From the NCBI RefSeq assembly GCF_001640025.1, contig NC_031674.1, forward strand, positions 1,550,001 through 1,614,000: a stretch of DNA of 64,000 bases, read 5' to 3'. Source of the stretch: Sugiyamaella lignohabitans. Lineage: Eukaryota > Ascomycota > Dipodascomycetes > Dipodascales > Trichomonascaceae. Below the pieces are notes generated by a model. It was not told the DNA's origin. It worked only from the letters and a program-made list of their open reading frames with translations, and did no database searches. Positions 12,801 through 62,675 of this stretch are shown piece by piece. How positions within the stretch are numbered: position 1 is the first letter of the stretch; each line of letters begins with the position of its first letter. A program made the translations under genes and the position numbers.

Positions 12801-12860
12801 CGACTCGAGCGTAGCGAGAGGAGCAGCAGGGTCTGGGGCGGAGCCCCAGCCGCCGGAGGC
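12801..12860 (-). repeat. GC double-hairpin element 1 (type I)
   Basis: 60-nt copy, 47 nt after the stop codon of the TRAPPC2L-like gene and in the same sense as that gene. The hairpin-2 loop reads TAC instead of TTC. Confidence 0.9.
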
Positions 12861-12907
12861 ATTAAAAAGCGATAAAACGAAGAGATAAATAAGATAAGGG
12901 ACATAGC

Positions 12908-13662
12908 TCATTTGCGGACCGAGGGGGTGTTCCATGCGATGGCCAGCTGTTCGATGGCCCTATCAAACGATTTGCTGGTGATTTCTGTATTGGGGTTGTA
13001 AACGTCGCGAAACGGATTGCACATGAACGAGATGTATGCCTTCTGTACCGCCCTAAAAGCCTGGTCGTTCGTTAGTGTCTGCGATTCAAATCGTCTCCGA
13101 CCAACTCAAAACATCCATATCTATATGCAGCTCTTTCTCAGCCCATTCATAGTGTGAACGAGATTACAAGCAATAAAAAAGGCTCGACTAAGAACCGGGG
13201 ACCGTACAGGACCCTACTGTACTTACGCTCCGTAGGTCGTACCGACTCGTATCCTGGGCATCGGTGCCAATCAGAATCTTCGCACTTGTATTCATCGAGC
13301 ACCCGTAGACGGCCACACCATCGTGGACCAGCAACAGCGAGCAGTCTCGGGGTGATTTGGCATATGTAGGTTCTGTCACGATGTAGTCTAGAGCCATATG
13401 TGAAAGAAAGTGATACCTTATATCCTTGTCACGTTTCTGCCTGGTCTCATCGCCATATTTATCATTGTCGAATGCTTTCAAATAAAGAGGCGAGTTCTAT
13501 CAACAGTTAGTCTTGGTCTTTGGAACTGGTGGAACAATGCCTCCGGCGGCTGGGGCTCCGCCCCAGACCCCGTGGTGCCTCTCGCTTCGCTCGAGCCAGG
13601 CGTCGTGAGCCTGGCACTTGGCGCATGGAATCAACTGGTTCTTGACTGGTATTTGTAATTAC
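12908..13662 (-). CDS. TRAPP-complex subunit, TRAPPC2L/Tca17-like (spliced, 5' end unresolved)
   Basis: Small longin-fold subunit of the TRAPP tethering complex that acts at the Golgi. Exon 13496-13227 reads NSPLYLKAF..., then IRYHFLSHMALDYI and LLLVHDGVAVYGC. It joins in phase across intron 13061-13226 (GTAAGT donor, CTAAC branch) to exon 13060-12908, which reads AFRAVQKAYISFMCNPF and ends in TGA. The pattern fits the family: PLYI near the start, FHY..H.SLD in the first third, and a near-terminal SF.K.H...MCNPF-like block. These two exons give 140 residues, close to the usual total. Upstream, a frame reading ADISLSIVL (to about 13663) joins in phase if the donor at 13662 is used, but no in-frame ATG precedes it. 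The true first exon is therefore not established. The intron upstream of 13496 carries GC element 2. Confidence 0.7.
13539..13597 (+). repeat. GC double-hairpin element 2 (type I)
   Basis: Lies in the first identifiable intron of the TRAPPC2L-like gene, antisense to the gene. One base differs in the middle spacer (TGGTGCC). Confidence 0.9.
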
Positions 13663-13699
13663 CAAGACAATTGAAAGAGAGATATCAGCCAAGTACTCT

Positions 13700-14246
13700 C
13701 ATGGAATATTCCCTATGTGGATACGCAAAGCTACAAGGTGTACAACTCTGCATCCATCTCTCTCCATTTTCTATCCAAACAACCAGAAAAAAAGTCTATC
13801 GAGCTTAAACACTTACATTTGGCCCTATTATGGATATGAATCGTATCGTTTGAGGCATTGCTTCCCTGTCTTGTCTATATTGAAATTAACTTCACGAGAT
13901 AAGTTCTCCAGCTGCACCATAGTCGAAATGAGTTCCTAACCCATTCAGGATACCGCATCACCCCCTGAGTTCTCTGGCTGCCAGCTACCAACCTGATGAT
14001 TCACCCGGAGTTTTTAAAATAAAATCAAAATAATTAGTAAAAGTCACTCTTGGGTGGATTTTCAGCAGATACTGGATCAGAAACCAATTTGATTTGAGAT
14101 TTGTTTGAAAATGGAAAAGAATATTATGAACTGACCCAAATATTAGCGCATAAATATCAAGCCGTACTGGAGCATTCATGTAGCTTATCAAGAGCTTTCT
14201 CAGATTTCACATCCGTCGTTCATTTCAAAGCGATTGTTAAAGTAGC
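13700..14246. other. Intergenic region, divergent promoters
   Basis: Non-coding sequence between the TRAPPC2L-like gene (minus) and the REX exonuclease (plus). No repeat copy or RNA gene was recognised. Confidence 0.5.
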
Positions 14247-16082
14247 ATGTTCAAGACTTTGAATGGACTATTCTCAAATATAGAATGTCCATCAATAAAG
14301 CAGGGCCAGAAATGTGAACTTATCAATTGCTTCTTCTCGCATGAGAGGCAGCGTCACCATGATACGTTGAGTCCAGAGGCGGAAAGTGCAAGGAAGAAAC
14401 AGAAGACTGGAAATGAGACTCGTTCTAGCAATGAAGCAGGTGTGAAGTCTAAGAATGACAATGACAATGGCAATGGAAATGAAAACGAAAATGGAAACGA
14501 AAATGGAAATGGTAAAGACGAATCCAGGCTGTTGGTAGCTGCTGGACAAGATCCAAGAAGCAATGCTCCTGGAGAGAAACTTTCGACGTCTAAACAAGAA
14601 TCTATGAAAGCTGACTCAATACGATCTGTGAAATTAGCTGAGACAACTGCCAAGGAGGCAGAACCCCAGCGGCTCTATAATAAACCGCCATCAACAGCAC
14701 CAATAACCGCGCCAGTAACAGCAAAAGTGACCCAGCATGCTCGCGAAGCGAGCACAACGGGGTCTGGGGCAGCGCCCCAGCCGCCGGAGGCAAGACCCAA
14801 TACCGAGAAGTTAGTTTTGAACCCAGCAAATAGACCTAAAGATGCCGAGAATCTGATTGTGAGACCACTTGTGACCAGTCCGGCCACCCATCCTCAGCGA
14901 ATGTCGTACTTGAAGACAATTTATAGTACTCTAATATCCACCAGTAAACATGCTCTGCCCAAGAAGCTGGCTATTCACTTGGAACATAAGACGGCGTCCA
15001 CTAGTACGACAGTATCGTATCCGATGAATATTCGCACGCTGGTCAAAAACATCAGGGCTGGCCATTACAGCGAAGAAAGTATGGCTAAACGCAAACGAGC
15101 TATTAAAAAGTCCACGAGTGAGCTGTATCGAAACGAGCTCGAAAAGCTTATAGTGCCTCCTGAAATTCTGAAAACTCGCAGCTACGAATTGACCCTTCCG
15201 CCAACGACTGGTAGACAGTTCGATAGTGCAATGCGAACGACTTGTGACCGGTGCGGGTCGCCGTTTCAGATCAACAATAAAGAACCCACGATATGTAGAT
15301 TCCATCAGCTGAGAAGACTGTATGATCCGGTGAAAAAGAAGAGAAGCGATATATTTCCATGCTGCTCACAGCCAGTAGGTGAAAGCAATGGCTGTTGTCA
15401 GACGACTCGACACGTCTTCAAAATTGACGATGCAGAAGTCCTAGCTTCTATTATCCCTTATACCACAGCTCCACCTCATCACACATCCGAAAACAATTCT
15501 ACAGAGGGTCCTGCTACTACCGCGAGTGCCACTGCCATGACTTCGAACAGTACAGAAACATCTAACACCAAGTCACGACTGTTTGCTGCAGCAATTGATT
15601 GCGAAATGGCGTACACAACTTTCGGGATGGAGTTGATCCGTCTGACTGTGGTAGACTGGGACACTGGCAAGACCGTGCTGGACAGAACAACATATCCATA
15701 TGGCGACGTAATAGATCTCAACACGAGGTTCAGCGGAGTCCATTCTCTCGAAGACGGGATCACTGTCAACAACGTGAAATACGATACCATCACCTTCAAA
15801 AAAGCCCGCGAGCTGCTGTTTGACTTTGTTGATTCAGCCACGATTCTCGTTGGCCACGGTCTAGAAAACGACCTTCGCTGCCTGCGACTCTGTCACACCC
15901 GAGTCGTCGACACTGCTCTCCGTTATCCCGACCTCAAACCCACCCGAACACATTCACTACGCGAGCTGGCCTTCACATACCTGGGTCGCACCATCCAGAC
16001 CGGCGAACACGATAGTAGCGAGGACGCTATTGCTGCCATGGATATCGTCAAGCAGAACATCAAACGCGGTCTCGCTCGGTGA
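14247..16082 (+). CDS. REX3: DEDDh 3'-5' RNA exonuclease of the REX3/REXO1 type
   Basis: Predicted RNA exonuclease involved in trimming structured RNAs; 611 residues with no introns. The N-terminus (GQKCELINCFFSH, residues about 20-33) is a CCCH-like finger as in Rex3. Residues about 72-92 form an Asn/Gly/Glu hexanucleotide-repeat tract. The catalytic domain occupies about residues 445-610: AAIDCEMAYTT (D, E), VGHGLENDLRCL (D) and GEHDSSEDAIAAMD (H, D), a complete DEDDh set. A GC double-hairpin element (14739-14791) lies inside the frame and supplies residues about 165-182 (REASTTGSGAAPQPPEA) in a linker. The ATG at 14247 is the first in frame. Assignment to REX3 rather than another REXO1 relative rests on the N-terminal finger and is moderately sure. 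Confidence 0.85.
   Translation: MFKTLNGLFSNIECPSIKQGQKCELINCFFSHERQRHHDTLSPEAESARKKQKTGNETRSSNEAGVKSKNDNDNGNGNENENGNENGNGKDESRLLVAAGQDPRSNAPGEKLSTSKQESMKADSIRSVKLAETTAKEAEPQRLYNKPPSTAPITAPVTAKVTQHAREASTTGSGAAPQPPEARPNTEKLVLNPANRPKDAENLIVRPLVTSPATHPQRMSYLKTIYSTLISTSKHALPKKLAIHLEHKTASTSTTVSYPMNIRTLVKNIRAGHYSEESMAKRKRAIKKSTSELYRNELEKLIVPPEILKTRSYELTLPPTTGRQFDSAMRTTCDRCGSPFQINNKEPTICRFHQLRRLYDPVKKKRSDIFPCCSQPVGESNGCCQTTRHVFKIDDAEVLASIIPYTTAPPHHTSENNSTEGPATTASATAMTSNSTETSNTKSRLFAAAIDCEMAYTTFGMELIRLTVVDWDTGKTVLDRTTYPYGDVIDLNTRFSGVHSLEDGITVNNVKYDTITFKKARELLFDFVDSATILVGHGLENDLRCLRLCHTRVVDTALRYPDLKPTRTHSLRELAFTYLGRTIQTGEHDSSEDAIAAMDIVKQNIKRGLAR
14463..14515 (+). repeat. Hexanucleotide (GGAAAT-like) tandem tract in coding sequence
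   Basis: Imperfect GGAAAT/GAAAAC hexamers that encode alternating Asn, Gly and Glu in the REX-type gene. A purer GGAAAT tract occurs at about 44374-44409. Confidence 0.8.
14739..14791 (-). repeat. GC double-hairpin element 3 (type II), inside a coding frame
   Basis: 53-nt copy within the REX exonuclease reading frame, antisense to the gene. Hairpin 2 is CTCGC-TTC-GCGAG and the hairpin-1 loop is GCT. The frame stays open through the copy. Confidence 0.92.
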
Positions 16083-16090
16083 AGGGATCT

Positions 16091-16143
16091 GCCTCCGGCG
16101 GCTGGGGCGCTGCCCCAGACCCCGTTGTGCTCGCTTCGCGAGC
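16091..16143 (+). repeat. GC double-hairpin element 4 (type II)
   Basis: 53-nt copy starting 8 nt after the REX stop codon, in sense orientation. Confidence 0.92.
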
Positions 16144-16615: not shown

Positions 16616-16672
16616 CGATTCGAGCGAAGCGAGAGGAGCAGTGGGGTCTGGGACGAAGCCCCAGCCGCCGAG
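16616..16672 (-). repeat. GC double-hairpin element 5 (type I, decayed)
   Basis: Degenerate copy about 76 nt after the stop of the small spliced gene, in sense with it. The outer GCCTCCGGCGG block is altered and the hairpin-1 stem carries a mismatch. Confidence 0.8.
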
Positions 16673-17382: not shown

Positions 17383-17689
17383 CTAATCGGTGCTATGATA
17401 CTATTGGCCGCTAGTTAGACCATGGGTAGTGAGTGACTACGGCAAAAAGTGGGGTCATGAACAAAGTGGGTGAATGAATACCACATCTGGTTAGCAAAGT
17501 GGTGCTATACCACTAACAAAGTTTCAAGATTCCTCCCGGAAGGGCAATAACCCCAACCAGCGGTAGGGCTTGTAGTGGGGTCTAGTTCCTCAGCCCTGTA
17601 GATCTGTGGTTGAAAATAAAGAGGGGCCAATCGACCCTGTGAGGGGTGAAGGTGGGGTGATTCTGAGATATGTTGGTTGACGGGGTTGT

Positions 17690-17742
17690 GCCTCCGGCGG
17701 CTGGGGCGCTGCCCCAGACCCCGTTGTGCTCGCTTCGCGAGC
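17690..17742 (+). repeat. GC double-hairpin element 6 (type II)
   Basis: 53-nt copy identical in design to elements 4 and 11, upstream of the small helical-protein gene. Confidence 0.92.
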
Positions 17743-18837: not shown

Positions 18838-18894
18838 CGACTCGAGCGAAGCGAGAGGAGCAACGGGTCCGGGCGGAGCCCGGCCGCCGGAGGC
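18838..18894 (-). repeat. GC double-hairpin element 7 (type I, altered hairpin-1 stem)
   Basis: The hairpin-1 stem reads CCGGGC/GCCCGG instead of CTGGGGC/GCCCCAG, so both arms have changed together and still pair. Confidence 0.9.
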
Positions 18895-19631
18895 AGAAAC
18901 CCAACCCCATAGAACCGACCAAAAGTCGATCGAAACAATGGTACGTTCCAGTGGGGGGATACCGTTCACCCCGGTTCATGACCAGTGGCGGAGAACATAT
19001 TACATCTCCCTACAACTCCGTGATCAGCGGCCGCCAGGGGCTATGGTTTCCACCAATCGGAGGTTGTAGACAGCAAATAAACTATTCGGAGTGCAGGGGC
19101 TGGAAGTATAATGTTTATTCTCCGAGACATGGACGATTTCATGGGCACAGTCCACCAGTCACGTCGAAGCTCGTTTGTTCTCCGGCGATCCAGGGTCACA
19201 GGCTGCGGCATGCAAAACAGATCCGTGCTTGGCATGAAACAACATCTCCGAGTTCAATTTAAGGTGTGTAAAACACAAAAAAGTTCTTTGTTGATAAAAC
19301 CAGCCACGGGGTTCTTTTCGTAAGTGACATCTCCGTCAAGGGTCACGCCACAGTGCATCGGCCAAGTCCGCGGGGCTGCCTCACAATCGGAGTTCAAACT
19401 GTGTAGGGACTCTGGAACACCACCCCAGTTGCTCTCGTTCCACTCAAGCTGTTATATTAACAGGGTCTAGATTTCTAAATCCATTTGACTTGGAGCTCGA
19501 GACCCGACTAATGGAGTCGGTACCTGATTCTGGCTGCATGTTCTCACTCCCGACCCCTGATTTCTACTGGCACAATTCGATGCAAGGGTAAACATGGGCT
19601 ATGTGCAACTGCTATTGCCGACGGTGGAACT

Positions 19632-19692
19632 GCCTCCGGCGGCTGGGGCTCCGCCCCAGACCCTGGTTGCTCCTCTCGCTCCGCTCGAGTCG
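19632..19692 (+). repeat. GC double-hairpin element 8 (type I)
   Basis: First of three copies within 210 bp. The hairpin-2 loop is TCC. Confidence 0.9.
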
Positions 19693-19713
19693 GTGCATGG
19701 GGACCCTAGCAAA

Positions 19714-19765
19714 CTCCTGCGAAGCAGGAGACACGGGGTCTAGGGCAGCGCCCCAGTCGACAGTG
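19714..19765 (-). repeat. GC double-hairpin element 9 (type III, decayed)
   Basis: Hairpin 2 is CTCCTGC-GAA-GCAGGAG as read on the plus strand. The outer CCGCCGGAGGC block is lost. Confidence 0.8.
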
Positions 19766-19781
19766 CGACCCTCAACGAAAT

Positions 19782-19840
19782 GACTCGAGCGAAGCGAGAG
19801 GAGCAGCGGGGTCTGGGGCGGAGCCCCAGCCGCCGGAGGC
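19782..19840 (-). repeat. GC double-hairpin element 10 (type I)
   Basis: Intact copy about 230 nt upstream of the tRNA-Thr gene. Confidence 0.92.
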
Positions 19841-20070
19841 GCTGATTTATTCCTAGCGAAAATGCAAAATCTGTACCCCAGTACGGGGCCAAGTCTCCGG
19901 ATACTTAGGACACAGTATAGGAAGTACCGGGGTTAATTTTCTAACTTCAGGGGTAAAAACTACTAGAGTTTATTACATATCCGAAACCAGGGTTAGGTTA
20001 AGATTAACTTCCGGATGGGGAAGGAGATGACATATAAGAAGAGTCAGAGCGTCTCACATAACATCTAGCC

Positions 20071-21655: not shown

Positions 21656-21673
21656 CCGGGGGGTGGGGGATGT

Positions 21674-21726
21674 GCCTCCGGCGGCTGGGGCGCTGCCCCA
21701 GACCCCGTTGTGCTCGCTTCGCGAGC
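21674..21726 (+). repeat. GC double-hairpin element 11 (type II)
   Basis: 53-nt copy starting 18 nt after the stop of the Gre2-like gene, in sense orientation. Confidence 0.92.
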
Positions 21727-21863: not shown

Positions 21864-21923
21864 CGACTCGAGCGAAGCGAGAGGAGCTACGGGGTCTGGG
21901 GCGAAGCCCCAGCCGCCGGAGGC
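21864..21923 (-). repeat. GC double-hairpin element 12 (type I)
   Basis: Hairpin-1 loop TTC instead of TCC; stem intact. Confidence 0.9.
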
Positions 21924-22460
21924 ACGATCACCCAACCACGGATCACGAACCCTGGTGGACCCTGAGGGATCGCGAGATGCAGCGGTGGTGCAGGATCAGC
22001 GGGAGATGAGTTGACAGATTAGGAAAAAATGGAGTTTAATGGATCTGAAACAGGCTGTTTATGGCGGACTGCGGGCCAGACGCCAGATGGGAATTGGTTG
22101 TGCGAAAAATAGGGTTCAGATACTGGGCACACAGGCGTTTGGGACGTATTCGACACGCCGGGCCCGAACCACATTACGGCCCTGTTTACGAGTTAGAGTC
22201 GAGAAACCGCGCATTGAGGGTCCAGAACCTGAATTAGAAAAGTAATCAAAGACTAACCAGCCATCCACGGTATCAAAACAGCTTTTGTGTGAAAAAGCAG
22301 TCCATCAGACGAGCGGCAGAGAATCTACAAACGGCACCATCGCGAACTGATCTGCTGGTTACTAGCGTCATCGCCATCCATCGTCGGCAGTTTCACCAAC
22401 CGAAACCACTCAAAAGCACCGAATCCAAACACAACAGCCTCTCCCCTCCACCGCCAGGGA

Positions 22461-22483: not shown

Positions 22484-22487
22484 AACT

Positions 22488-22547
22488 CGACTCGAGCGAA
22501 GCGAGAGGAGCAGCGGGGTCTGGGGCGCAGCCCCAGCCGCCGGAGGC
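22488..22547 (-). repeat. GC double-hairpin element 13 (type I)
   Basis: Hairpin-1 loop TGC instead of TCC; stem intact. Next to the poly-C run. Confidence 0.92.
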
Positions 22548-22805
22548 GACACCCGGACACCCCCCATCGGCGCCATCGACAGCAAGCAACAGAAGAACGA
22601 CGACCCCGGGAATGAGACCGGTGTCGATAGCAGTGCGTGATGCAGCTCTGATGGGCCCACCCGCATCTCCGATCAGGCCCCTGAATCTGCTGCTGCTTTC
22701 TGGCCAAATGAACCTGCATCTCGGCCTGACAGCCACCTGAGACACCCGACCGACCCCACCGGTATCGTATGATCGAACCTGGACTTCAGGGAAGGGGGTG
22801 TGTGT

Positions 22806-22865
22806 GCCTCCGGCGGCTGGGGCTCCGCCCCAGACCCCGTGGCTCCTCTCGCTTCGCTCGAGTCG
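22806..22865 (+). repeat. GC double-hairpin element 14 (type I, consensus-like)
   Basis: Full 60-nt copy matching the family consensus. It is followed by the GAGCGTCGGG tail seen beside several type I copies. Confidence 0.95.
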
Positions 22866-26328: not shown

Positions 26329-26597
26329 CGATATCTTTTCAACCTGTATTATTACTAGACCATGTGACATGCCTGATACGATTTTGCTTTAATTTAATAC
26401 ATAATATGCTAATAAGTTAGTTGTAAAATGGTCGCTGTGCCGGACCCTGACTCATTCTGCTCTACATGGAAAAGCTGAGGTATAGAGCTACACTCTCGAG
26501 AGAATAATAATACTCCACAGAATCATTGACTGATGGTTGAGTCTGATAATACACGGCAAAGGGGGCATTCGAGTTCTGTGGACACTACTAACCAACT
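26329..26597. other. AFI1 3' flank
   Basis: AT-rich and non-coding, up to the first AT-rich repeat copy. Confidence 0.5.
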
Positions 26598-27182
26598 GTC
26601 AAAATGTTCCAGTTATTCTAATTTTTTGCTGAGTACTGAAGTGCAACCCAAACCCTAAACGGGCCCAGAAACTATAATGTAAATTATCTCTCGATGGCGT
26701 GCTGGTAAATGAGGAAATAGGTGTATTTACAATTATTCTGACCCTGGGCAATCTTTAGATGCGCAATTTGTCGCATAAAATTCTATGAACAAAAAGTTAT
26801 TTAGGAAAATTCGAAAATTGAAAAACGACAAGGGGTATAAGGCAAAATTGGCGAAAATGGCTGTTTTTCACGAAAATTTAACGGCCAATTTTTTGGCAAT
26901 TTTATATACTGACCAGAAGCAGCTGGGAATTATGAATTCAATAGTGCTGGAATTAATTCAAGCGCAGCGATATTAGGCGAGTTATAAGCGATTTTATAAA
27001 ATTATGCCTCTATACCACGTGATAATTTTGCATATCATGCAAGATCTATGCAAGATTCATGCCAGATTTATTAAAAAGCCCCTGCGTTTTATGCCAGATA
27101 TTATTGCATTAGCGTCTATGTTATCTTAGATATACTAGCATATTATGCGAGGTAATCTTAGATATAGTTATAGACCCTGCAT
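26598..27182 (+). repeat. AT-rich dispersed repeat, copy 1
   Basis: About 585 bp, similar over its length to copies at 31487-32072 and 32635-33203. Shared landmarks are a TGTCAAAATRTTCC left end, an ACCCAAACCCT block, AATCTCTCGAT-like blocks, AAAAAGTTATTTAGG, a GGAATTAATTCAAG block, GCAAGATCTATGCAAGATT, and a GACCCTGCA right end. It contains a short open frame (26785-26976) that is not conserved in sequence or length among copies. Confidence 0.85.
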
Positions 27183-28599: not shown

Positions 28600-28883
28600 A
28601 TCGTTGACATATGATTGAACTGCGCTTTCCCCATCTTCTATTTTATTTGAACATAAATCCAGTTTGCCAAATCTCTTAGATGTCATCAATGTGACATCCA
28701 ATGTCGCCGGTGCAAGACGCTTCGGGCAATGCTGGTCGACATCAGGCTTTCATTTTACTAGTGAAACGAGAGTACTAGAGAGATAAAACAGAACTTTCAT
28801 CAGTGGTTTCAAATAAGTGATTCCAAGTAGTTCGACTAGGTTTAGAAAAACTAATGGTATAAATTATATAGCATCTAATTTAA

Positions 28884-35966: not shown

Positions 35967-36197
35967 GGCTGGTAATCGAGTCTAGTATGGTTAAACAACT
36001 AACAACACTGCCGACTGAGGCCCATTGCAGCTGCCAGCGACGTCGACCACACCCGCTTAAGCGGCTCCCAACCCCAACCCACACCCCTGAACCCGAACCC
36101 TGTTTTACCCCAAGGTATAACAGGGCCCTATTTTTTTCAGTTTCTAACTTGCGGTGTCCACTAGTGACGGTATGGTTTTCTGGAGAGGGGAGGCACT

Positions 36198-36257
36198 GCC
36201 TCCGGCGGCTGGGGCTCCGCCCCAGACCCCGCTGCTCCTCTCGCTTCGCTCGAGTCG
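36198..36257 (+). repeat. GC double-hairpin element 15 (type I)
   Basis: 60-nt copy, followed by GGGCGTCGGGG. Inverted relative to element 16. Confidence 0.92.
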
Positions 36258-36358: not shown

Positions 36359-36418
36359 CGACGCGAGCGAAGCGAGAGGAGCAGCGGGGTCTGGGGCGGA
36401 GCCCTAGCTGCCGGAGGC
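36359..36418 (-). repeat. GC double-hairpin element 16 (type I)
   Basis: Copy with single-base changes in the outer and hairpin-1 arms (GCCCTAGCTGCCGG), partner of element 15. Confidence 0.88.
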
Positions 36419-37044
36419 AGGTTACCCCACCAGACTGTCGACCCGTGACCCCGACCCGATTCCTATCAGACTGCGGCACCAGGGCACATGTCTGACGGAG
36501 ACCTGTTCTGCAGGGCCCATGCAGAAAGAGCTTCCATTGTGTACTTTGACATGTAGCCAAGAAAAGATGAGCGCTTCCAGATTTGCCGATCAGGCGGCTA
36601 TAGCACATGTGGGGAACTCGTGCGACAGCGGGGTTATGTGGATCAGTCACCGAACCAGGGGGTCTCAAATAACTTATAGAGTCATAATTTCTAGAGTTTA
36701 AATAGCAGCAGCAGATCAGACAGGTTTTGAGCTGGGATTTTCAAATGTTGGCAAACTGAGACGGTTGTTAATTGATCCGGTTGCAAGTTTGTCGAAACGC
36801 AGAAATCGGTCTCTCGGCATGTTTATCCGGTGACGAGGATCGATGGCACGCCGCACATACGGGATGGAACTACAGAAGGAGCATCGAGCCTATAAATATA
36901 GAGTTTCTCCAATTAACTATTCTGGTAACTAATTGGCTTTTGAAGTTAATTTGGCCGATCCCTAGTTACGAACCGCTTTTGACCAATTGGGTTTTTTTTC
37001 TAGTTTGTTGAAGAATTGGCTGTTCTTGAAAGAAGTTATTAACA

Positions 37045-38709
37045 ATGGCTCACGATTTGTATAAGCTCGAACCGAAGCAGCGGAGACCTGCTCTTTATCA
37101 CAGTGCCAGTGGTGCTAGTACTCCTATTCCTCTACCAGACCAATATAATCAGCCTGTTCATAAACATCCTGGTCTTGATACCGAACAATCATCTACAGGA
37201 GTTATTTGGACAACTGAACAGGCCACTCTTAAGGGGTTCCAACCAGATGATCCTACCCACAGTTGGAGTAACCTCGGACAGGGTGCTCCTGAGGTCGGTC
37301 ATATTGAAGGCTGTATGGAAAAACCCACGAGCATTTCAGTCGATGAAAGTACTCGTGAATACGCCTCGACTGCTGGTCTCAAGTCATTGCGTGAAGCAGT
37401 GGCCAATCTCTATAATGAACATTATCGGAAAGGCTATGAGAGCCAGTATACGTTTGAGAATGTGTGTATTGTTCCCGGTGGACGTGCGGGTCTGATCCGA
37501 ATTGCCGCTATCCTGAGAGACTGTTATTTGTCGTTCTTCTTCCCTGATTACACGGCCTACTCGGAAATGTTGGCTCTGTTCAAGAACTTTGCTCCTATCC
37601 CGGTGCCATTGGACGACAGTGACAACTATGAGGTTCACCTCGACATCATCAAGAACGAACTCAATCGTGGTGTCACTGCTATGTTGACTTCGAACCCTAG
37701 AAATCCCACTGGTCAGGCAATGAAGGGCGAGGACCTCAGAAGACTCCAGGACATGTGCCGAGCCCACTGTCTTCTTATCATGGACGAGTTCTACTCGAGA
37801 TATGACTACAATAATGGCTGTGATGTGAGTATTTTGGGGAAGGTCGCAGTGCCTCCGGCGGCTGGGGCTTGGCCCCAGACCCCGTGGCTCCTCTCGCTGC
37901 GCTCGAGTCGAGTGCGTGGTGAGGCGGGCAGTGGTTGGTGTGTGTTACTAACGAGGGGTATAGGGTTCTAGTGAGAGTGCAGCCGCTAATATCATTGACG
38001 TTGATAAGGACCCTGTTCTTATTTTGGACGGTCTTACGAAAGCATTCAGACTGCCTGGATGGCGTATTTGTTGGATTCTCGGCCCTAAACAGTACATTAA
38101 TGCACTGGCCTCGGCTGGCTCGTACTTGGACGGTGGTTCCAATGTGCCCTTCCAAAAAGCCGCCATTCCCATGTTAGAGCCCAAGCTCGTGACAAAAGAG
38201 ATGGCCGCTTTACAGAAGCACTTCTGTGCCAAGCGTGACTACTGTATCAAGCGACTGGAGGATATGGGATTCGAATTCAAAGTTCGCCCCAGTTCGACCT
38301 TCTACCTATGGCTGAACTTGATTCATCTTCCAGGAAAGATCAAGACAGCCCTTGGTTTCTTCCAAGAATGTCTCAATGAAAAGGTCATTGTTGTTCCAGG
38401 TGTAAGTAATATTTTTGAGTCGCTCGCCCAAAGCCCGACTCGAGCGAAGCGAGAGGAGCCACGGGGTCTGGGGCGGAGCCCCAGCCGCCGGAGGCACAAG
38501 TCAACTAAGCCACTAACAACTCCAAGATTTTCTTTGATCTGAACCCTCTTGCCAGAAGAGAGCTGCATGATTCGCCTATGTTCCACTATGTGCGAATCTC
38601 GTACGGACCCGACATGGAGGCCCTTAAGAGGGGTATGGACGGCATTCAACGGGTTGTGGAGAAGTTCCAGAAGGTGCCAGTGTCTAATGTCTATGCTCCT
38701 CGCAGATAG
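37045..38709 (+). CDS. Class I/II PLP-dependent aminotransferase (three exons)
   Basis: Fold-type I aminotransferase; 466 residues from exons 37045-37824, 37964-38401 and 38527-38709, all phase 0. Introns 37825-37963 (GTGAGT, TTACTAAC, TAG) and 38402-38526 (GTAAGT, CACTAAC, AAG) each contain one GC element. Family motifs are SNPRNPTGQ (cofactor Asn), MDEFYSRYDY (Asp/Tyr), the Schiff-base Lys in LTKAFRLPGWRICW, and a late Arg in HYVRISYGP for the substrate carboxylate. The long N-terminal extension (about 60 residues with LYHSASGASTPIPLP) is not typical of aspartate aminotransferases. The substrate cannot be named from sequence. Confidence 0.88.
37851..37910 (+). repeat. GC double-hairpin element 17 (type I), in intron 1 of the aminotransferase
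   Basis: The only copy inside a gene that is in sense with its host. The hairpin-1 loop is TTG and the hairpin-2 loop TGC. Confidence 0.93.
38436..38495 (-). repeat. GC double-hairpin element 18 (type I), in intron 2 of the aminotransferase
   Basis: Consensus-like 60-nt copy, antisense to the host gene. Confidence 0.95.
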
Positions 38710-45749: not shown

Positions 45750-48700
45750 TTAAACTTGTTGAGGGAGGAGCCCTTCCGGTTGTCGTTGCTGTTGGCCTTG
45801 GAGAGCTAATAAATACCTATTTGTGCCCAGTTGCACAATTGACTTTGTCTGATGCTTGATGTACGTGAAATCTGTCTTATCAATAAACGTAATCGCTTTG
45901 AGAGACAGCCACACCAACATGAAGATGAACAGAGGCAGCCAGAAGAAGAAAAACATCTTATCGTTACGGAGCCCACGTTGCTTTTCTCTCCATGCCTGGA
46001 GAACACGATCCTCTTCTTCTTCGGCAGATGTTGGGAATTCTACAGTGTCATCGATAGTCTCAGTATCAGGCAAAGAACCCAACTCAATGTGTTCAGCAGC
46101 TTCGTCAGTCGTCGACTCAACTTGTTTGTCACCGTCAAATGCCGCCCGTTGGTAGCTTTCTGACGATGTTGCGCCCTCGGGGAAGATCTCCTCATAACTT
46201 GGTGGTGGTACATTGTCTTCAGTGGGGGTATGAACGTGAGACATTAGTCTTTCGGGAACAAAAAAGTTCCAAAAAGCTGCTGCTGCAGCTGCTTGTTGCT
46301 GTTGGTGGCTATGTCTGTGTTGTTGATGTTGACCATGCTGTGGCTCTTCATCAGCGTGTCGACGGCGAAGGAATCCGTTTCTTGCGTTATCTCGTAGGTC
46401 TGCCCAGTAATGAGCAAGACCCCTAGGCGAGTTTTCGCCCCTAACAGATGCGACATCATTACTTTCGCTGATACTTGGACGGCGAGATGAAATCCGTGAC
46501 GACCTCCGTGATGATACTGGGGCACTACCATAAATACCAGGTCTCATATAATCATCGTCCCATTCAATGTCCAGCTCAGATTCCTGCTCAGAAAGATCTC
46601 TGCCAGACACCTCATCTTCAGACACGTCAGTTAACTCATCATCCTCTTCAAACGAATTTTCATCAGAAACACTTCCTTCATGAGATGACATATCCCATTC
46701 ACTGTCAATGTACTCGTCAATCAAAACGTCTCGAAGCTCTCTACTAGCCAAATCCAACACTGTAGAACCGTCATTTGTGCGAATACAGGGGTCAGCTCCT
46801 TCGTTAAGCAACAATCTAACTATATCTTCCCTGCCATGGAACACCGCAAAATGCAAAGCAGTATACATATTGCTATCACCATAGTCGAGCGCAGCACCTG
46901 CTTCAATCAGAGCTGAACAAAGTCTTGTATATCCTCTGCTACTCGCCAAGTGAAGCATTGTCTGCTCCTCGCTATTACAAACATCCCAATTTGTAGCAAA
47001 CTTGGAACAATCGTCAATGGTTTTAACAAAGTCCAAGCACGAAATAAGCATTTGTTGGAGTTTTTCTCCTCTCAGAGTCAAGAAACCAGCCGAATGATTG
47101 CTACTTCCTCCTCCACTCTCATTACCACCAGAAAGTTGTTCACGAAGTTCATTTGAAATTCCAACTCCACTGCCGATAATCCTCTTTGCGATTTCTCTAG
47201 CATCCTCTAGTTTACCATTCATTTTTAATCCCACCACCTGGAGAGCCAACTCAATCAGTTGACGATCGGTATCATCAAAATACCTAAACAGCTTGTTCTC
47301 GGCACCACCAATCCAGCCATCAAATGTCACATTGACAGGACCTTCAGTTTGGGCTGGAGGCAAATGTGTAATCAGAGTTGTGCTGTTCCAGCATTGAGTA
47401 GAAGGCGACTTATTATCACCAAACCGAACCACTAAGCCATTGACAAACCCAGTACCCAGAATAGTCACCTCAATACCACCACGAATGGATCCTTGACCAG
47501 GAATTACCCTTTCGATGACCGGCATCTGAGTATCCATATCGTTGCGGTTGAAATTCATCCAGCTTGATCCAGGAGGAATCACTTGACCATCGTGCAAACT
47601 GGCCCTGTCAAAGCTAGCTGTTGCATCACTTGACCCTGGTGTAGCTGCCCTACTGCTGAATGCCGAGGTAGACGCGGTTATTGGTGAATGAGCCCTACTC
47701 GTATTTGCCGTTACAGTTCCACCACTGTTGATTGCCACGAGCCCACTTCCCGCATAAAGAGGCGTGCGGACGTCCTGATAACTGCTGTTATGGCTATTAG
47801 CCAGGCTACTGCTTTTACTTGGGGCTGTACTACCGGTTACAAACGGAACAGAGTCAATAATCATTTCTTGACGCTGTTGATGGTTCCCACTGGCCGAAGC
47901 AGTAGATATAGCACCAGCGCCAGCGCCTGCTACACCTGCTCCTCCCAGTCCACCAGTAGCAGCATTCATGCCTTGTGACTTTTGGCGCAAATGACCCTGG
48001 GACTTCTCTCTATCACGCGATCCACTATCACGAGCTTCTGTCTCGCTATCATCATCATTGGCTTTTCGCTTTTTAGCCCTTGGTCCCTCGTCAGCAAACC
48101 CGCTGCTACTGGTCTCCCCAGCAGATGTGGCCATATTCGACCCGGTCTTGTGGTCGTCTGTGATCATGACTGCCGTGGTAGATGCCCGGCTTACTACCGT
48201 TCCTGTGTGGTCTTTGACCGCCAGAAATACCCTGTTGTTTGTTAGTTTCTGTTCATTGTGAGGGCCTGCCTCCGGCGGCTGGGGCTACGCCCCAGACCCC
48301 CCGGCTCCTCTCGCTTCGCTCGAGTCGTTACGTCTACGGCCTCTTGTACTTACCTGAAGCCTACTTTCTCGCTGTGGTGGCGGCAGTAGCATGCCAAACG
48401 CATGGGAAGTTCGATTTGGCGAGCCGTGACAGTTCTGCCATCGACTTCGATGTCATCGAGTGCACCAAAGTCCACGACTTCTTTGCAGTTGAAGACTATT
48501 CCTCGCTTTTCTGTGTCTTCACACCAGTGTGCCTCTTCAACAGGGAGACGAACCTTCTTACGTGAAGCACGTTTGCGTTCTCGTCGGATGCATCCGTTAC
48601 ACATGTTGGCGTAATGGTGTACATTGCTGTGGCACACGACTATGGTCTCTAAATGCAGAGTGTCGGGTGATGGCACAAAAGGATCCTTTAGTTGTAATTT

Positions 48701-51221: not shown

Positions 51222-51253
<32 letters not shown>

Positions 51254-52054: not shown

Positions 52055-52114
52055 CGACTCGAGCGCAGCGAGAGGAGCAGCAGGGTCTGGGGCGGAGCCC
52101 CAGCCGCCGGAGGC
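52055..52114 (-). repeat. GC double-hairpin element 20 (type I)
   Basis: 60-nt copy about 160 nt upstream of the tRNA-Leu gene. Hairpin-2 loop TGC. Confidence 0.93.
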
Positions 52115-52275
52115 AGCGTGGGGACGTGGACCCAGTGTTCTAACTCCTGTGATGGACCTTGGCGCTCTGAGTTGAAAAATGGCGTTATTTCCCTCAAAAG
52201 CCGGGATTCCGACGATACGAAAAAGACGTGGTACTTGGCCGGAAATGAGTCTGCAGGATCAGATTTTCAACAACA

Positions 52276-56022: not shown

Positions 56023-56062
56023 CAATTATTTATTTATTTTATTATTTCCGCACTGTGACTCT

Positions 56063-56122
56063 GCCTCCGGCGGCTGGGGCTCCGCCCCAGACCCCGTGGC
56101 TCCTCTCGCTCCGCTAGAGTCG
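56063..56122 (+). repeat. GC double-hairpin element 21 (type I)
   Basis: Begins 40 nt after the REV1 stop, in sense orientation. First of a direct tandem pair (period 84 bp). The hairpin-2 arm carries one mismatch (CTAGAG). Confidence 0.92.
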
Positions 56123-56146
56123 AGCTACACTCTTCTCTGGGTCGCT

Positions 56147-56206
56147 GCCTCCGGCGGCTGGGGCTCTGCCCCAGACCCCATTGCTCCTCTCGCTCCGCTC
56201 GAGTCG
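56147..56206 (+). repeat. GC double-hairpin element 22 (type I)
   Basis: Second of the tandem pair. Hairpin-1 loop TCT, hairpin-2 loop TCC, followed by the same CGAGCT tail as element 21. Confidence 0.92.
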
Positions 56207-56335: not shown

Positions 56336-56395
56336 CGACTCGAGCAAAGCGAGAGGAGCCACGGGGTCTAGGGCGGAGCCCCAGCCGCCGGAGGC
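56336..56395 (-). repeat. GC double-hairpin element 23 (type I)
   Basis: Hairpin-2 loop TTT. Orientation opposite to 21/22, same as PYK1. Confidence 0.92.
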
Positions 56396-56496
56396 AGAAC
56401 CCCGTGCCCGAGCGGAGACCCAAAAGTTGGGTGTGATGTATTTATCATCAGAATTCAGTAGCACACTCGCTAGAAAACCGTGACAAACCCACCTAA

Positions 56497-56556
56497 CGAC
56501 TCGAGCGAAGCGAGAGGAGCCACGGGGTCTGGGGCAGAGCCCCAGCCGCCGGAGGC
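56497..56556 (-). repeat. GC double-hairpin element 24 (type I)
   Basis: 66 nt after the PYK1 stop codon, in sense with PYK1. Hairpin-1 loop TCT. Confidence 0.93.
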
Positions 56557-56622
56557 AGGATCCCATACCAGGGTTGTTGGGGAAGGTATTTATCATCATA
56601 ATTAATTAGCATAGCTGAAGAG

Positions 56623-59055
56623 TTATTTGGCTTCCAAGATACGGAGGGTGTTGGAGTGGCCAAGACCACCGGTCCATCCTTGGATGACAACCACGGTCTC
56701 GCCTCTGTTCAAGATGCCGAGATCGATACCTTGTTGCATTCCCCACAGGAGACGGGCCTCGACGTCTTGTTGCCACTCGCCAGAGTTGGAAGCACGGGGC
56801 TTCTCGTAGACGAATGGGTACACCCCACGGTATAAGTGGCAGTATCGGGCGGCAATCTCGTTTCTGGTGACCATGAGAATGGGGCAATTGGGTCTGTACT
56901 TCGAACACAGACGGGCAGTGGATCCACTGGTCGACAAGACAATAATGGCCTTGGCTTGTTGCTCGAAACTGGCGGCAACAGCAGCAATGGCAACAGTCTC
57001 TGAGGTAGAGGTGGGCAAAGGAGCCAAAGAACGGATCTCGTTGAACAAGGGTTGGTAGGCAATGGCCTTCTCGGCAACAATGGCGGTCTCGTGCATCATG
57101 GAAACGGCCTCAACAGGGTACTTACCCTTGGCGGTCTCACCAGACAACATCACACAGTCAGCACCGTCCAAAATAGCGTTACCAACATCCGAAACCTCGG
57201 CACGGGTAGGACGGGGGTTGTAAGTCATGGACTCCAACATCTGAGTGGCACAGATAACGGGCTTACCAGCCAAGTTACACTTGGCAATGAGCTGCTTTTG
57301 AACAATGAAAACCTTGGAGGCAGGGATCTCAATACCCAAATCACCACGAGCAACCATGACACCGTCAGTCTCCTTAAGAATGTCGTCGAAGTTGTTGACA
57401 CCTTGTTGGTTCTCAATCTTAGCAATGATTTGAATGTGCTTTCCGTCCTCACCCAAAACCTCACGGATGGCCTTGATATCGTCGCCAGTACGGATGAAAG
57501 AGGCAAAGATCATGTCCACCTTGTTCTTAACACCGAATCTAAGATCCGACTTGTCCTTCTCGGAAAGAGCTGGCAAATCGACATCGGTGTTGGGCAAGTT
57601 AACTCCCTTGTGAGAAGAGATGTTACCGTTGTTGACAGCACGAACCTTCAAGGTTTGCTCGTCCTTGATCTCCAAAACCTCGAAAGACAACACACCATCG
57701 TCAACGTAGATAATACGGCCAACCTTGATAACCTTGGTGATGTTCTTGTAGTCAACATACATGATCGAGTCGTCACACTTCTTGGCGTAAGCAGAGTCGG
57801 TGGTAATGATCATCTCATGACCGGCCTTGATGGGGTAGTCTCCACCGCTAGTGGTAGTACCAGTTCTGATCTCAGGGCCCTTGGTGTCAAGAGCAATGGC
57901 CAAAGGACGACCGGGGAAAACTCGGGTCGACTCACGAGCATTGTCAATGACAGATTGGTGGTATGAGTACTCACCGTGAGAGAAGTTCATTCTCACAATG
58001 TTCAAACCAGCTGTTGTTCGGTTAGTACGAGCGGGAAGGGAGGGTCTGCCTCCGGCGGCTGGGGCTCCGCCCCAGACCCCGTGGCTCCTCGAGCAAAGCT
58101 CGAGGAGTTTTTTTGGAGTGACTGACAGGGTCTTAGGGGTATACCCCCTGACACGGCTGGGTCAGGCCAGGGCGGACGAGGAGTTGGTGGGGTGATTGAG
58201 TTTTTCCGAGATGCATGAAACAACTGTGAGCCGCTGCATGGGTTAATCCGCTGCTCAAGACAACGAAATATGTACAAGGGAACAGGCGGCAGGTCTGGTG
58301 AGGGGCACCGGGACAAATGGCGGATATTTCGTGAAAAACGAACTCAACAGAGACAACCGAGACTATTGGATTCTCTCGCTGTGCATTAAAATTGAAATTA
58401 ACACTGCTTCAATAGCCTCATGGCTCCTTTTCCGACACCTCCGTCTGATTGAACCGGCTGAAAATATGTATCGCAAGTTTGTAGAGCAATCATACAAAAA
58501 CAATAACCACAATTAACCAGCCAAAGCATGCCAACAAATGATTTATAATCGAAATTAAAATGGCCTGTATGTTACAAGTGATCTGGTAAATGCTCTGGTA
58601 ATAAGTTCAGTATGACTCCCCTCTGTCGTTTTCTTCAATTATGAATGAAAGAAAATCTGCTTGTCGTCGAGTACCATTCTAAGTCGTATAATATTCATCT
58701 GACCCCCTAGTTCGTATCCTCTTTTATTCCATTGTTTAAAAAGCATTGTTGTTCAATGCTCCTCTCATTGTTGTTTGCTTATCGGAACATCTCAATCATC
58801 AGCTCACCCTACTCGTGTTATCAGCTTTTGCTACCTACCCTTTCTCAACTTGACCAACATCTCAACATTGTTGGAATTGGGACCTGTTCCTGTTAGTCTT
58901 TCCACAATTCTCATCTAAATTGACTTGGATCAAATCCACTTACCAATGGTACCGATAATGGAAGAACGACGGAAGTTCTTGGAGGGAAGGTTCTCAGTGT
59001 CCAAAGTGGTCAACCACTGGAGGTTAGAGCTTGGGTTGTTGGAGTTAAAGATCAT
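56623..59055 (-). CDS. PYK1: Pyruvate kinase (three exons)
   Basis: Final glycolytic enzyme, which turns phosphoenolpyruvate and ADP into pyruvate and ATP; cytosolic. Exons 59055-58944, 58883-58839 (only 45 nt) and 58010-56623 join in phase to give 514 residues. Junctions read [37 protein letters not shown], the conserved N-terminus. Further signatures are [57 protein letters not shown] and [11 protein letters not shown]. Intron 1 (58884-58943) is 60 nt with GTAAGT and CTAAC. Intron 2 (58011-58838) is 828 nt with GTAGGT, TACTAACC and CAG, far longer than other introns here, and contains GC element 25. The start is the ATG at 59055. Confidence 0.97.
58048..58108 (+). repeat. GC double-hairpin element 25 (type IV), in PYK1 intron 2
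   Basis: Antisense to PYK1. Hairpin 2 is a perfect 10-bp stem, CTCCTCGAGC-AAA-GCTCGAGGAG, followed by a T7 run: the only copy of this form seen. Confidence 0.93.
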
Positions 59056-59455: not shown

Positions 59456-60712
59456 CATTATTCCGCTCCCTAAAGAGGAATCAGCATATATGGAATGTTT
59501 AGTTATACCTCGAACTATTTTTAAATATATCTCGTGGTGGTCCAGTCAGGTGTTTTTGTAAGGCGTTCTCTCAATGGTGTTTACTAACATTGGTTGATTT
59601 TCTTTCTCAATATTCGGATATATATATTAAATATACAATTTTAATTTCAGCTACTGAGATTGAATAGAATTGTTCATTGTCCTGTCTCACTGGATATATA
59701 CAGGTGGGGGTTTGGACACTGTCAATCGGGCACCACAGTCGTTCTTGCGCCTGGTTGCACCTGCCCACGTCATCATCAGTTTCTCACCAAACCCGGCATC
59801 ACCTGTATCACCAGTACTTGGTACCACCTAACATCAGCTGGCATCAGCTGGCATTAGCGAGCATCAGCTAGTACCTGCTTGAAACAAAAACCAAACCAAA
59901 AGCAAAAACAAAGATAAAAATAAAAACAGGCCCAACTGTAGCCAGATGATGGCATGTTTTTAACCGTTATATCTACATTAGCACCAACCCCTACCATTTG
60001 CCTAATCTTAAAACAGTCTCGAGAATATCCAGCTGCTGGAAAGTGGACTTGCCATGCCAACCATGCCAACAAAGGGGCACACCTGTTAACAAACCTAGCA
60101 CATGCCACGCCCAACTAACGGCCACAGCCAATAAATAGATCCATTAACTCACCATACGTAACTACCTACCTACCTACCTACCACCTGTTCAAGGCGACAG
60201 ACAGACAGATAGACGACTGCCAAAAATGCACCTCGCATTGCACCTCAAAAGCCACACAAGTCCCCTATCTCAGAGTACAGATAACATGCTCCCAACAAAA
60301 ATTAATCCTGGCACCTGCGTATAAGCAGTAACGTTTACTCACCACCCTCACCTTGACTGGCCACAACACACAGATCCACCAACCACCACGCACGTAAATA
60401 TGCATATTTTTCATGCACCCACTGTTCCAGGCGAAGAAAAATCTTTCCCTATATATCCGGATCAACTTAATACGGTAGTCTGACGCATCTTCCTTATCAG
60501 CAAGCCAACCAACTGCCTCCTTGGCTGCCTCCAAACGGCCAACCTGTACTCACCTCATGCGGGCCAGCAGTCCCGGAAATACCTAAATCCCCTAATCCCC
60601 GATCAATTACCCACAACTGCGCGGCCATCGCTACCGTCCTACTTTCAATTGGACAGCGATTCTCCGCGATCTATCCTCCTCCGTTCGGCGATACAGGTGG
60701 TGGAGTGGGCCT

Positions 60713-60772
60713 GCCTCCGGCGGCTGGGGCTCCGCCCCAGACCCCGTGGCTCCTCTCGCTGCGCTCGAGTCG
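60713..60772 (+). repeat. GC double-hairpin element 26 (type I)
   Basis: 60-nt copy followed by GTGCGTCGGG. Hairpin-2 loop TGC. Confidence 0.93.
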
Positions 60773-61084: not shown

Positions 61085-61402
61085 TCTACGATCAGGGTAA
61101 CTATTATACGCAATTAAAATGGTAGACATATATCCAACAAGATCAACGGAAAGGAGATTTATGATTTTATAAAAGGTTCAACAAACCAAAAAATGGGAAT
61201 TGAGAAAGGCAAAACATCAATGAAAGCTCTCATTTAAAGCCAATCACTCTATTGGTAGAGCTGTATGGATCCCAGGTGTAGCGAGAGACTTAGTCAGTTC
61301 TGCAACTCCAGTTATCACACTTCTCTCACAAATGGACACGAAAATTCACCCCAGTTAAACTTCGCCCCCATCATCCCCCAAACAATCCACCCCCCTCGAA
61401 AA

Positions 61403-61453
61403 ACGAGCGAAGCGAGCCACGGGGTCTGGGGCGGAGCCCCAGCCGCCGAAGGC
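61403..61453 (-). repeat. GC double-hairpin element 27 (short variant)
   Basis: About 51 nt. The hairpin-2 module is reduced to CGAGCGAAGCGAG followed directly by CCACGGGG. Confidence 0.88.
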
Positions 61454-61711
61454 AGGCCAGGCAGACTCACAGATCAGCGAGCCCGAGCCGCAGTGAAATT
61501 TCAGCCCGATCAGCCAATAACCATGAACTCTTGCCTCATGGGGCATGGGGCTCACGCCGAGCGATGGGCTGCAAATGGCGGGGGGAGATGCTGGCAGCTG
61601 GCGTACATAAAAAGTGAAAAATTCCTTTCTGTTCTTTTTCTTTCTTTTCGTGATTTCAGATTTTTTGTGTTTTCTTTGTCAAACTGTAAAAAAATCCAGA
61701 CCCAGATCAAA

Positions 61712-62403: not shown

Positions 62404-62468
62404 GCGTGTCGCCTCCCCGATCCTTGTAATTAGCCAACAAAACAAGTCACTTTTACAATTTCCGGCCT

Positions 62469-62522
62469 GCCTCCGGCAGGTGGGGTACTGCCCCAGTCCC
62501 CGTGGCACTGCTTCGCAGGAAA
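62469..62522 (+). repeat. GC double-hairpin element 28 (type III, diverged)
   Basis: 65 nt after the YNK1 stop, in sense. The hairpin-1 stem is shortened to TGGGG/CCCCA with loop TACTG, and hairpin 2 is CTGC-TTC-GCAG. Confidence 0.85.
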
Positions 62523-62541
62523 CTTTTACTCGTCCCCGTCT

Positions 62542-62595
62542 GCCTCCGGCGGCTGGGGCTCTGCCCCAGACCCCGTAGCTCCTGCTTCGCAGGAG
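62542..62595 (+). repeat. GC double-hairpin element 29 (type III)
   Basis: Hairpin 2 is a perfect 7-bp stem, CTCCTGC-TTC-GCAGGAG. Hairpin-1 loop TCT. Confidence 0.93.
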
Positions 62596-62615
62596 TTGCT
62601 GGGACCGAGACGGAA

Positions 62616-62675
62616 CGACTCGAGCGGAGCGAGAGGAGCAGCGGGGTCTGGGGCGGAGCCCCAGCCGCCGGAGGC
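62616..62675 (-). repeat. GC double-hairpin element 30 (type I)
   Basis: 42 nt after the urate oxidase stop codon and in sense with that gene. Hairpin-2 loop TCC. Confidence 0.93.

Follow-up and report, generated by a model that had tools for sequence, protein, structure and literature searches.

How can a short, non-coding DNA element that consists of structure only multiply in a nuclear genome? The question is raised by a 64,000-nucleotide stretch of Sugiyamaella lignohabitans (hereafter the window; contig C2, NC_031674.1, positions 1,550,001 to 1,614,000), in which an initial annotation, made from the letters alone, described a family of GC-rich double-hairpin elements. Structure-only palindromic elements are already well described in bacteria and organelles, and thousands of near-identical copies in a nuclear genome offer a testable system for the spread of gene-less DNA. 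The existence and the architecture of the family are secure. As to how it came about, our leading explanation, held tentatively, is a nuclear, non-coding selfish DNA-hairpin repeat spreading by a single-stranded DNA route.

The source genome comprises 15,932,016 bases in four contigs. Exact matches to the end block of the element with its G-run numbered 5,867 (2,929 + 2,938), whereas the reversed end-block pattern had 0 matches in the whole 15.93-Mb genome. Counted by these exact ends, the copies, which are halves of a larger unit (see below) and measure about 60 bp each, make up about 2% of the nuclear genome. Within the window, GCCTCCGGCGG was found 28 times with at most one mismatch (0.34 expected from shuffled sequence), and CTGGGGC-NNN-GCCCCAG was found 29 times with at most two mismatches (0.15 expected). 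The shuffle expectations and the empty reversed search rule out low-complexity chance as the source of the family. The location is nuclear, as first described: the neighbours include pyruvate kinase, a REV1-like polymerase, ZPR1, and an MGA2-like gene, and spliceosomal introns are present. The proteins encoded in the window are of ascomycete-yeast type, and the best 120 of 4,878 relatives of the pyruvate kinase reached up to 88% identity (best named ones: Nadsonia and Trichomonascus, 81-82%; then Geotrichum, 81%, and others). A mis-assembly of organelle DNA was rejected, since the contigs measure 5.93 and 4.95 Mb and the copies on them have nuclear genes as neighbours and occupy spliceosomal introns. 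The initial reading, a structure-only, non-coding family dispersed among ordinary nuclear genes, is supported. Literature searches returned no paper on the yeast repeat among the matches listed, and its 17-base core was without a match in the papers searched.

Architecture was analyzed in the window and twenty 10-kb stretches outside it (264 kb in total), and the fractions below refer to this sample. Each copy reads T-GCCTCCGGCGG-CTGGGGC-NNN-GCCCCAG-ACCCCG-hairpin 2. This block order recurs as initially described, but the copy of about 60 nucleotides (nt), which had been taken for the element, proved to be half of a larger one. The halves fall into two classes, R, with hairpin 2 CTCCTCTCGCTNCGCTCGAGTCG, and L (La, Lb, and Lc), with differing perfect stems. 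Orientation was scored by the end block, hairpin 1 being its own reverse complement. Inverted pairs within 400 bp numbered 62, a few of them counted twice. Without exception, the 41 facing pairs whose inner gap was at most 44 nt joined one L and one R half, 31 of them with a gap of 19-24 nt, and it is because of this strict pairing rule that we regard the copy as a half. Another 15 facing pairs had gaps of 63-183 nt and included seven R-R and two L-L pairs. The canonical unit is thus about 138 bp long, with an L half, a variable centre of about 22 nt, and an R half in inverted arrangement; the arms are conserved, and other halves are solitary. In a strict search, 84 of 187 halves lay in L-R units, compared with 18.2 expected and a maximum of 36 in 500 random placements, which were uniform on non-coding DNA and ignore regional clustering. 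Clustering of one linker variant among neighbours was weak (57/103 versus 48.5 expected; standard deviation, 4.7).

The window itself contains mostly lone halves and one canonical unit, at 62541-62676. No terminal inverted repeat had been recognized there; the L-R unit has long ones. The count of 30 copies over 12801-62675 is fair once a half without GCCTCCGGCGG (about 19702-19756) and the remnant at 16648-16664 are included. The copies, with the two introns that hold some of them, are as follows.

12801..12861, minus strand: R half, alone; core with 0/29 differences from the consensus
13538..13598, plus strand: R half, alone
14739..14792, minus strand: Lc half of 54 bp, in frame within an RNA-exonuclease-like open reading frame (ORF; 14247-16082), encoding AREASTTGSGAAPQPPEA
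16090..16143, plus strand: Lc half, 7 bases past the stop codon of the RNA-exonuclease-like ORF (14247-16082)
16648..16664, plus strand: remnant, hairpin 1 only, one mismatch
17689..17742, plus strand: Lc half, alone
18838..18895, minus strand: R half, hairpin 1 stem CCGGGC/GCCCGG, ends approximate
19631..19692, plus strand: R half, left arm of a wide R-R pair (with 19781..19841)
19702..19756, minus strand: La half without the GCCTCCGGCGG block, within the wide R-R pair 19631-19841, start approximate
19781..19841, minus strand: R half, right arm of the wide R-R pair (with 19631..19692)
21673..21726, plus strand: Lc half, left arm of a wide Lc-R pair (with 21864..21924)
21864..21924, minus strand: R half, right arm of the wide Lc-R pair (with 21673..21726)
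22488..22548, minus strand: R half, alone; a run of more than 20 G in the inner flank
22805..22865, plus strand: R half, alone
36197..36257, plus strand: R half, left arm of a wide R-R pair (with 36359..36419)
36359..36419, minus strand: R half, right arm of the wide R-R pair (with 36197..36257)
37825..37963, plus strand: spliceosomal intron 1 of the aminotransferase gene, GTGAGT...TACTAAC...TATAG, phase 0 (ends from sequence and reading frames)
37850..37910, plus strand: R half within intron 1 of the aminotransferase gene
38402..38526, plus strand: spliceosomal intron 2 of the aminotransferase gene, GTAAGT...CACTAAC...CCAAG, phase 0 (ends from sequence and reading frames)
38436..38496, minus strand: R half within intron 2 of the aminotransferase gene
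48267..48327, plus strand: R half between two ORFs
52055..52115, minus strand: R half, alone
56062..56122, plus strand: R half, 39 bases past the stop of the REV1-like gene
56146..56206, plus strand: R half, left arm of a wide R-R pair (with 56336..56396)
56336..56396, minus strand: R half, right arm of the wide R-R pair (with 56146..56206)
56497..56557, minus strand: R half downstream of the pyruvate kinase gene
58047..58107, plus strand: half whose hairpin 2 is a perfect palindrome with loop AAA (corrected-palindrome variant), end approximate
60712..60772, plus strand: R half, alone
61400..61454, minus strand: half with a short hairpin 2, end approximate
62468..62522, plus strand: degenerate La-like half, 4 core differences, end approximate
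62541..62676, no single strand: sole canonical unit (L-centre-R) in the window, 136 bp, with La at 62541-62595 and R at 62616-62676

Long inverted ends, T...A termini, a variable centre, and the over-representation of units are what a non-autonomous DNA transposon with terminal inverted repeats (a miniature inverted-repeat transposable element, MITE) would show. The L-R unit would then be the element, lone halves would be its remnants, and the transposase would be lost or unrecognized. The state of the lone halves argues against this. Mean core differences were 0.44 in lone halves (n = 75) and 0.46 in halves within units (n = 84; p = 0.84), and for R halves they were 0.16 (n = 37) and 0.52 (n = 42), respectively, in a search that is blind to cores with more than six mismatches. 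Halves that stand alone are thus no worse preserved than halves within units and are not simply decayed units.

Folding as DNA joined the first block, hairpin 1, and the ACCCC linker into one imperfect stem, followed by hairpin 2. What the initial annotation took for a spacer, ACCCCGTGG, is thus predicted to pair with GCC..CGG.GG, and the first two blocks and the spacer would form one longer imperfect hairpin. The loops follow a rule. A search for the R hairpin 2, allowing any base at the loop centre and at most five mismatches elsewhere, recovered 108 copies, in which 22 of 23 positions were at least 94% constant and position 12, the loop centre, was free (T 54, G 34, C 10, A 10). The first-block loop was TCC in 155 of 157 cases, and the hairpin 1 loop was TNC in 125 of 176, the remainder being mainly TCT and GCT. 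On the complementary strand a TNC loop is GNA, and every hairpin there shows a C(GNA)G loop always or in most copies. A tandem GA mismatch flanked by paired segments is a further feature of the R hairpin on that strand, as seen in the sequence and in the RNA fold. DNA mini-hairpins with C(GNA)G loops, in which G and A form a sheared pair, are known to be exceptionally stable. The free centre of the R-hairpin loop fits such mini-hairpins, because they would leave that base free. GNA loops are described in a portion of PMC6479982. The loops point to the strand ending CCGCCGGAGGCA-3' as the one that would fold. Because the C(GNA)G loops and the tandem GA mismatch lie on the GNA strand, the working form is probably this strand as folded single-stranded DNA. 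The loop rule suggests that what is recognized is a nucleic-acid structure, most likely DNA.

Outside the elements, 44 hairpins with a stem of at least 7 bp and a loop of 3 were found. Of these, 13 had a C-G-closed GNA loop, all 13 in two chromosome-end pieces, and a genome-wide excess of GNA hairpins of any sequence was accordingly rejected for the sample. The right-end piece of contig C1 (C1:5,928,001-5,930,846, local positions 1948-2846) carries a 337-bp tandem repeat, in 2.7 copies, with AT-rich hairpins. C(GAA)G loops were present in 11 of 11 three-base-loop hairpins of this piece and in two of three in the left-end piece. The chromosome-end hairpins represent a second, unrelated family in the same genome that obeys the same loop rule.

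The outer end of the element is sharp, with T as the outer base in 93% of 184 copies. The outer 15 bp are G-rich (38-55% G per 5-bp bin, compared with 21-22% in the next bin), alike in 46 lone and 110 paired halves. No clear target-site duplication (TSD) had been noticed in the window, and the larger sample bore this out. In 43 canonical units direct repeats occurred at chance level, save one of 12 bp, and no repeat at a fixed offset from the ends was found; among 95 other halves, long direct repeats were slightly above chance (at least 10 bp: 3 versus 0.5 expected). The lack of a general TSD in the canonical units, bar the one 12-bp repeat, is a second point against a MITE. It also counts against an RNA-mediated element of the short interspersed nuclear element (SINE) type, copied by a reverse transcriptase in trans. 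High copy number and a stable RNA fold would suit such an element. In addition to the missing TSD, no poly(A/T) tail was evident in the copies inspected, Rfam at gathering scores returned only two tRNAs in the window, and unit ends are precise on both sides, so we regard a SINE-like origin as very improbable. Rfam 'miRNA' matches of one locus lay far under gathering scores and were set aside as chance matches to GC hairpins.

Compared position by position in 59 units, flank complementarity reached z = 5.9 at 20 bp, the signal coming mainly from wide pairs. In these, the outer flanks prolong the palindrome, 4 of 14 scoring at least 10 compared with 0.11 expected. A gapped flank-palindrome test on the 43 canonical units gave no extension (z = 0.5). 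The hairpins themselves bear traces of replication: whole-loop inversions affect La (2 of 56) as well as Lb (1 of 6), and the palindrome of the copy at 58047 has been corrected to a perfect one. Such hairpin changes are described, in a part of PMC8604942, as a signature of template switching in inverted repeats. Spread may have needed no dedicated enzyme. Hairpins would stall replication, and template switching and break repair would copy or capture the fragments that carry them, chiefly at G-rich sites prone to recombination; the exact ends would lie where the folded structure stops. The loop inversions, the palindrome correction, the prolonged flanks of wide pairs, the lack of a general TSD, and a density that tracks the GC content of third codon positions (GC3; see below) all agree with this. 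The sharp outer end, the strict L-R rule, and the fixed centre of about 22 nt instead suggest recognition of a defined unit, and the canonical units are without extended flank palindromes. We consider enzyme-free template switching and repair a serious possibility, ranking close behind the single-stranded DNA route.

If a dedicated enzyme was involved, it was not found as a repeat-flanked transposase among the families searched by profile (Y1_Tnp, MULE, DDE_3, DDE_1, and others). MULE and DDE_3 had no match in the genome, with positive controls. DDE_1 matched two long ORFs that are not bracketed by the repeat within flanks of about 1.5 kb; one has a unit and a half on one side only. These results may speak further against a MITE, which we judge unlikely. 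hAT, Helitron_like_N, and Viral_Rep gave 0 matches in the genome, which carries little weight since no control genome was positive.

In the window, copies occur in both orientations in intergenic DNA, introns, and one coding region, as first reported. In the sample, ORFs of at least 150 amino acids held 27 of 201 module midpoints compared with a coding fraction of 48%, indicating that ORFs are avoided. Because none of the three forward frames is closed by a stop in a typical half, some element-bearing ORFs may be spurious. The peptide encoded by the in-frame Lc half of the RNA-exonuclease-like ORF is absent from 10 aligned relatives, in a poorly conserved region. In the aminotransferase gene both introns hold an R half, with donor, branch point, and acceptor outside it; for this reason an Introner was rejected. 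Modules gather behind genes: of 111 intergenic modules, 23 are no more than 100 bp past a stop codon, compared with 6.8 expected. This would suit a cis-acting host element, such as a signal for 3' ends or for chromosome architecture, maintained by selection and not by mobility. The strand bias relative to the gene is only slight, however (34 co-oriented and 25 anti-oriented on the 3' side), copies also sit in introns and in an ORF, and a stretch of about 33 kb has none, all of which makes a host signal improbable.

That stretch, without a detected copy, comprises window positions 1-12800 and C2:1,530,001-1,550,000; the mean for the whole genome is about 3.7 exact ends in 10 kb. Across 26 such 10-kb stretches, density correlated with GC3 of predicted ORFs (rho = 0.83; ORFs unmasked for elements) and with non-coding GC with elements masked (rho = 0.73); copy-rich and copy-poor stretches differ in GC3. 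An element-free part of the window, 26597-33205, contains three diverged copies (79-90% identical) of a sequence of about 590 bp.

We favour the single-stranded DNA route because of the loop rule, the missing TSD, and the doublet layout. Copy number, the sharp outer end, strict L-R pairing, the copies in introns and in an ORF, the hairpin changes, the link of density to GC3, and the bacterial repeats described below also count in its favour. The data establish the family with its architecture, loop rule, and pairing rule, the want of a general TSD, the distribution in the sample, and the core in common with bacterial hairpin repeats, whereas movement, a single-stranded DNA intermediate, and a trans-acting enzyme are inferred. 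One strand would become single-stranded at replication forks or resected breaks. The exposed strand would fold and then be copied and joined elsewhere without target duplication, beside a G-rich tract of about 15 bp and a T. Its outer end would probably be set by a trans-acting single-strand nuclease or recombinase. Insertion or survival may be best in GC-rich domains and directly past stop codons.

Several observations weigh against this route. Of the 176 hairpin 1 loops, 51 violate the GNA rule. DNA fold energies barely depend on the strand (-17.3 versus -16.6 and -19.6 versus -19.1 kcal/mol). In the predicted DNA structure, hairpin 2 of the R half has a stem of 4 bp and a loop of 7 nt and does not take the mismatched form. 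It is the RNA fold that draws the mismatched GNA hairpin and in which the strands differ more (-32.4 against -28.7), leaving room for an RNA role; our preference for DNA comes from the loop motif and not from fold energies. Y1_Tnp (PF01797) had 0 matches in the genome, with 5 of 14 control genomes positive. No repeats of the flanks that might represent empty sites were found in the 279 kb compared, and insertion was not directly observed. Of the twenty outside stretches, fifteen were picked from places with matches, and the remaining five cover the 50 kb that adjoin the window on its left; fractions are therefore not genome averages. Lastly, several loops of the bacterial repeats described next fall outside the GNA rule.

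Bacterial repeats share with the yeast element a common core, GCCTCCGGCGG-palindrome-ACCCC, and some occur as inverted doublets. The nearest matches in sequence came from bacteria and from phage-like bacterial contigs, mitochondrial DNA not being among the sequences searched. A metagenome-assembled genome (MAG) of Desulfovibrionaceae carries a 34-base stretch identical to nine window copies, one base past the stop of an ORF that we take to be argininosuccinate synthase. This MAG has 17 end blocks, and in six of the eight loci read, a hairpin of the yeast kind stands behind one. Among 198 genomes sampled from its phylum, 24 had any match, and more than three were found only in the MAG and in genome G041 (38). 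In IMG/VR, the pattern GCCTCCGGCGGC...GACCCC enclosed a stem of at least 5 bp at 25 of 79 distinct places (16 of 83 contigs), compared with 0 of 54 and 0 of 24 for control patterns. The stems differ in sequence yet pair (CTGGGGCC, CCGGGGG, CCAGGGG, CCAGCG). Inverted doublets of 98-128 bp were present at eight places on seven contigs, two of them near-identical, and terminase or portal genes lay beside doublets in both IMG/VR contigs checked. Y1_Tnp was not found in G041; the MAG has two Y1_Tnp genes, with no repeat copy seen in the flank.

The bacterial repeats, GCCTCCGGCGG-palindrome-A(C/A)(C/T)CC, resemble the yeast family in the first block, the ACCCC linker, and, in some, the CTGGGGC...GCCCCAG stem. 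They differ in having few end blocks per genome (17 and 38), no yeast second hairpins seen, and loops that are not always GNA. The literature searches returned no paper on them either among the matches listed. Given the length of the shared block and the outcome of the controls, the sharing is not chance, and it raises the question of whether hairpins can cross domains or the same structure is invented repeatedly. The sequences compared do not discriminate between common descent and a convergence imposed by the same structural demand. Shared descent, with an entrant resembling repetitive extragenic palindromic (REP) sequences that multiplied to about 6,000 nuclear ends as folded single-stranded DNA recognized by its C(GNA)G loop, is conceivable but doubtful.

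Other occurrences were seen in bacteria. In G041, end blocks also form short tandem runs of GCCTCCGGCGGCCTGGGGCC, several then followed by a palindrome and A(C/A)(C/T)CCC. The Brevibacillus brevis plasmid pBbsII (5.7 kb) has one GCCTCCGGCGG-palindrome-AACCCC copy (piece 3001-3037) near a Rep_1 replication gene. All or most of the bare hairpin CTGGGGCTCCGCCCCAGACCCC is found across unrelated replicons, single-stranded DNA phages among them: 18 plasmid records of Streptomyces, a microvirus associated with Apis, and an inovirus. As plasmid and phage matches are mostly the hairpin alone, as in the 18 Streptomyces records, they were not counted as relatives.

Among known systems, Helitrons have TC...CTRR ends and insert between A and T, whereas the yeast units start T-GCCTCC and end GGAGGC-A. 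With MITEs the yeast unit shares long inverted ends and a dispensable centre; it differs in having no general TSD, no partner transposase found, and halves that stand alone and undecayed. Fungal mitochondrial double-hairpin elements are short, GC-rich, hairpin-only repeats, apparently mobile, and mitochondrial. The likeness to these and to mitochondrial GC clusters drawn by the initial annotation stands for architecture and fails for sequence and for the AG target site. Clusters of the GC42 type are likewise short GC-rich hairpin-only repeats, GC clusters being apparently mobile, but the part of PMC4478555 that deals with the yeast mitochondrial GC42 cluster gives it a two-base AG target site. 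The nuclear copies here have no AG duplication (their outer bases are T and A) and a different sequence, and they lie among nuclear genes and spliceosomal introns. Closer in setting are the palindromes of Volvox carteri, which, as sections of PMC2670323 describe them, are short, have loops of 3-5 nt, and occur in intergenic DNA and introns in both orientations, some of them in the nucleus. There, organelle-like sequence amounts to about 0.06% of the genome, and the palindromes are judged to be inert organelle imports. The yeast repeat, by contrast, makes up about 2% of the nuclear genome in near-identical copies.

The nearest parallel in layout is with REP sequences and REP doublets forming hairpins (REPINs). 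In the portions of PMC3116915 and PMC8266576 that treat them, these are short imperfect palindromes, some with conserved mismatches, occurring singly or as over-represented inverted doublets with a spacer. They are mostly extragenic, reach up to thousands of copies, and are thought to be handled as folded single-stranded DNA. Inverted doublets are over-represented in the yeast as well (84/187 halves versus 18.2 expected). The differences are that the yeast repeat lives in a eukaryotic nucleus, has two unlike halves per unit, and has singlets that are not more diverged than doublets (0.44 versus 0.46). No Y1 transposase corresponding to the REP-associated tyrosine transposases (RAYT, TnpA-REP) was found in the yeast genome, and no tetranucleotide of the GTAG type stands by the yeast palindrome, where the flank has only a T at -1 (93%) and a G-rich tract. 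The yeast family is not a REPIN; in layout, it is REPIN-like.

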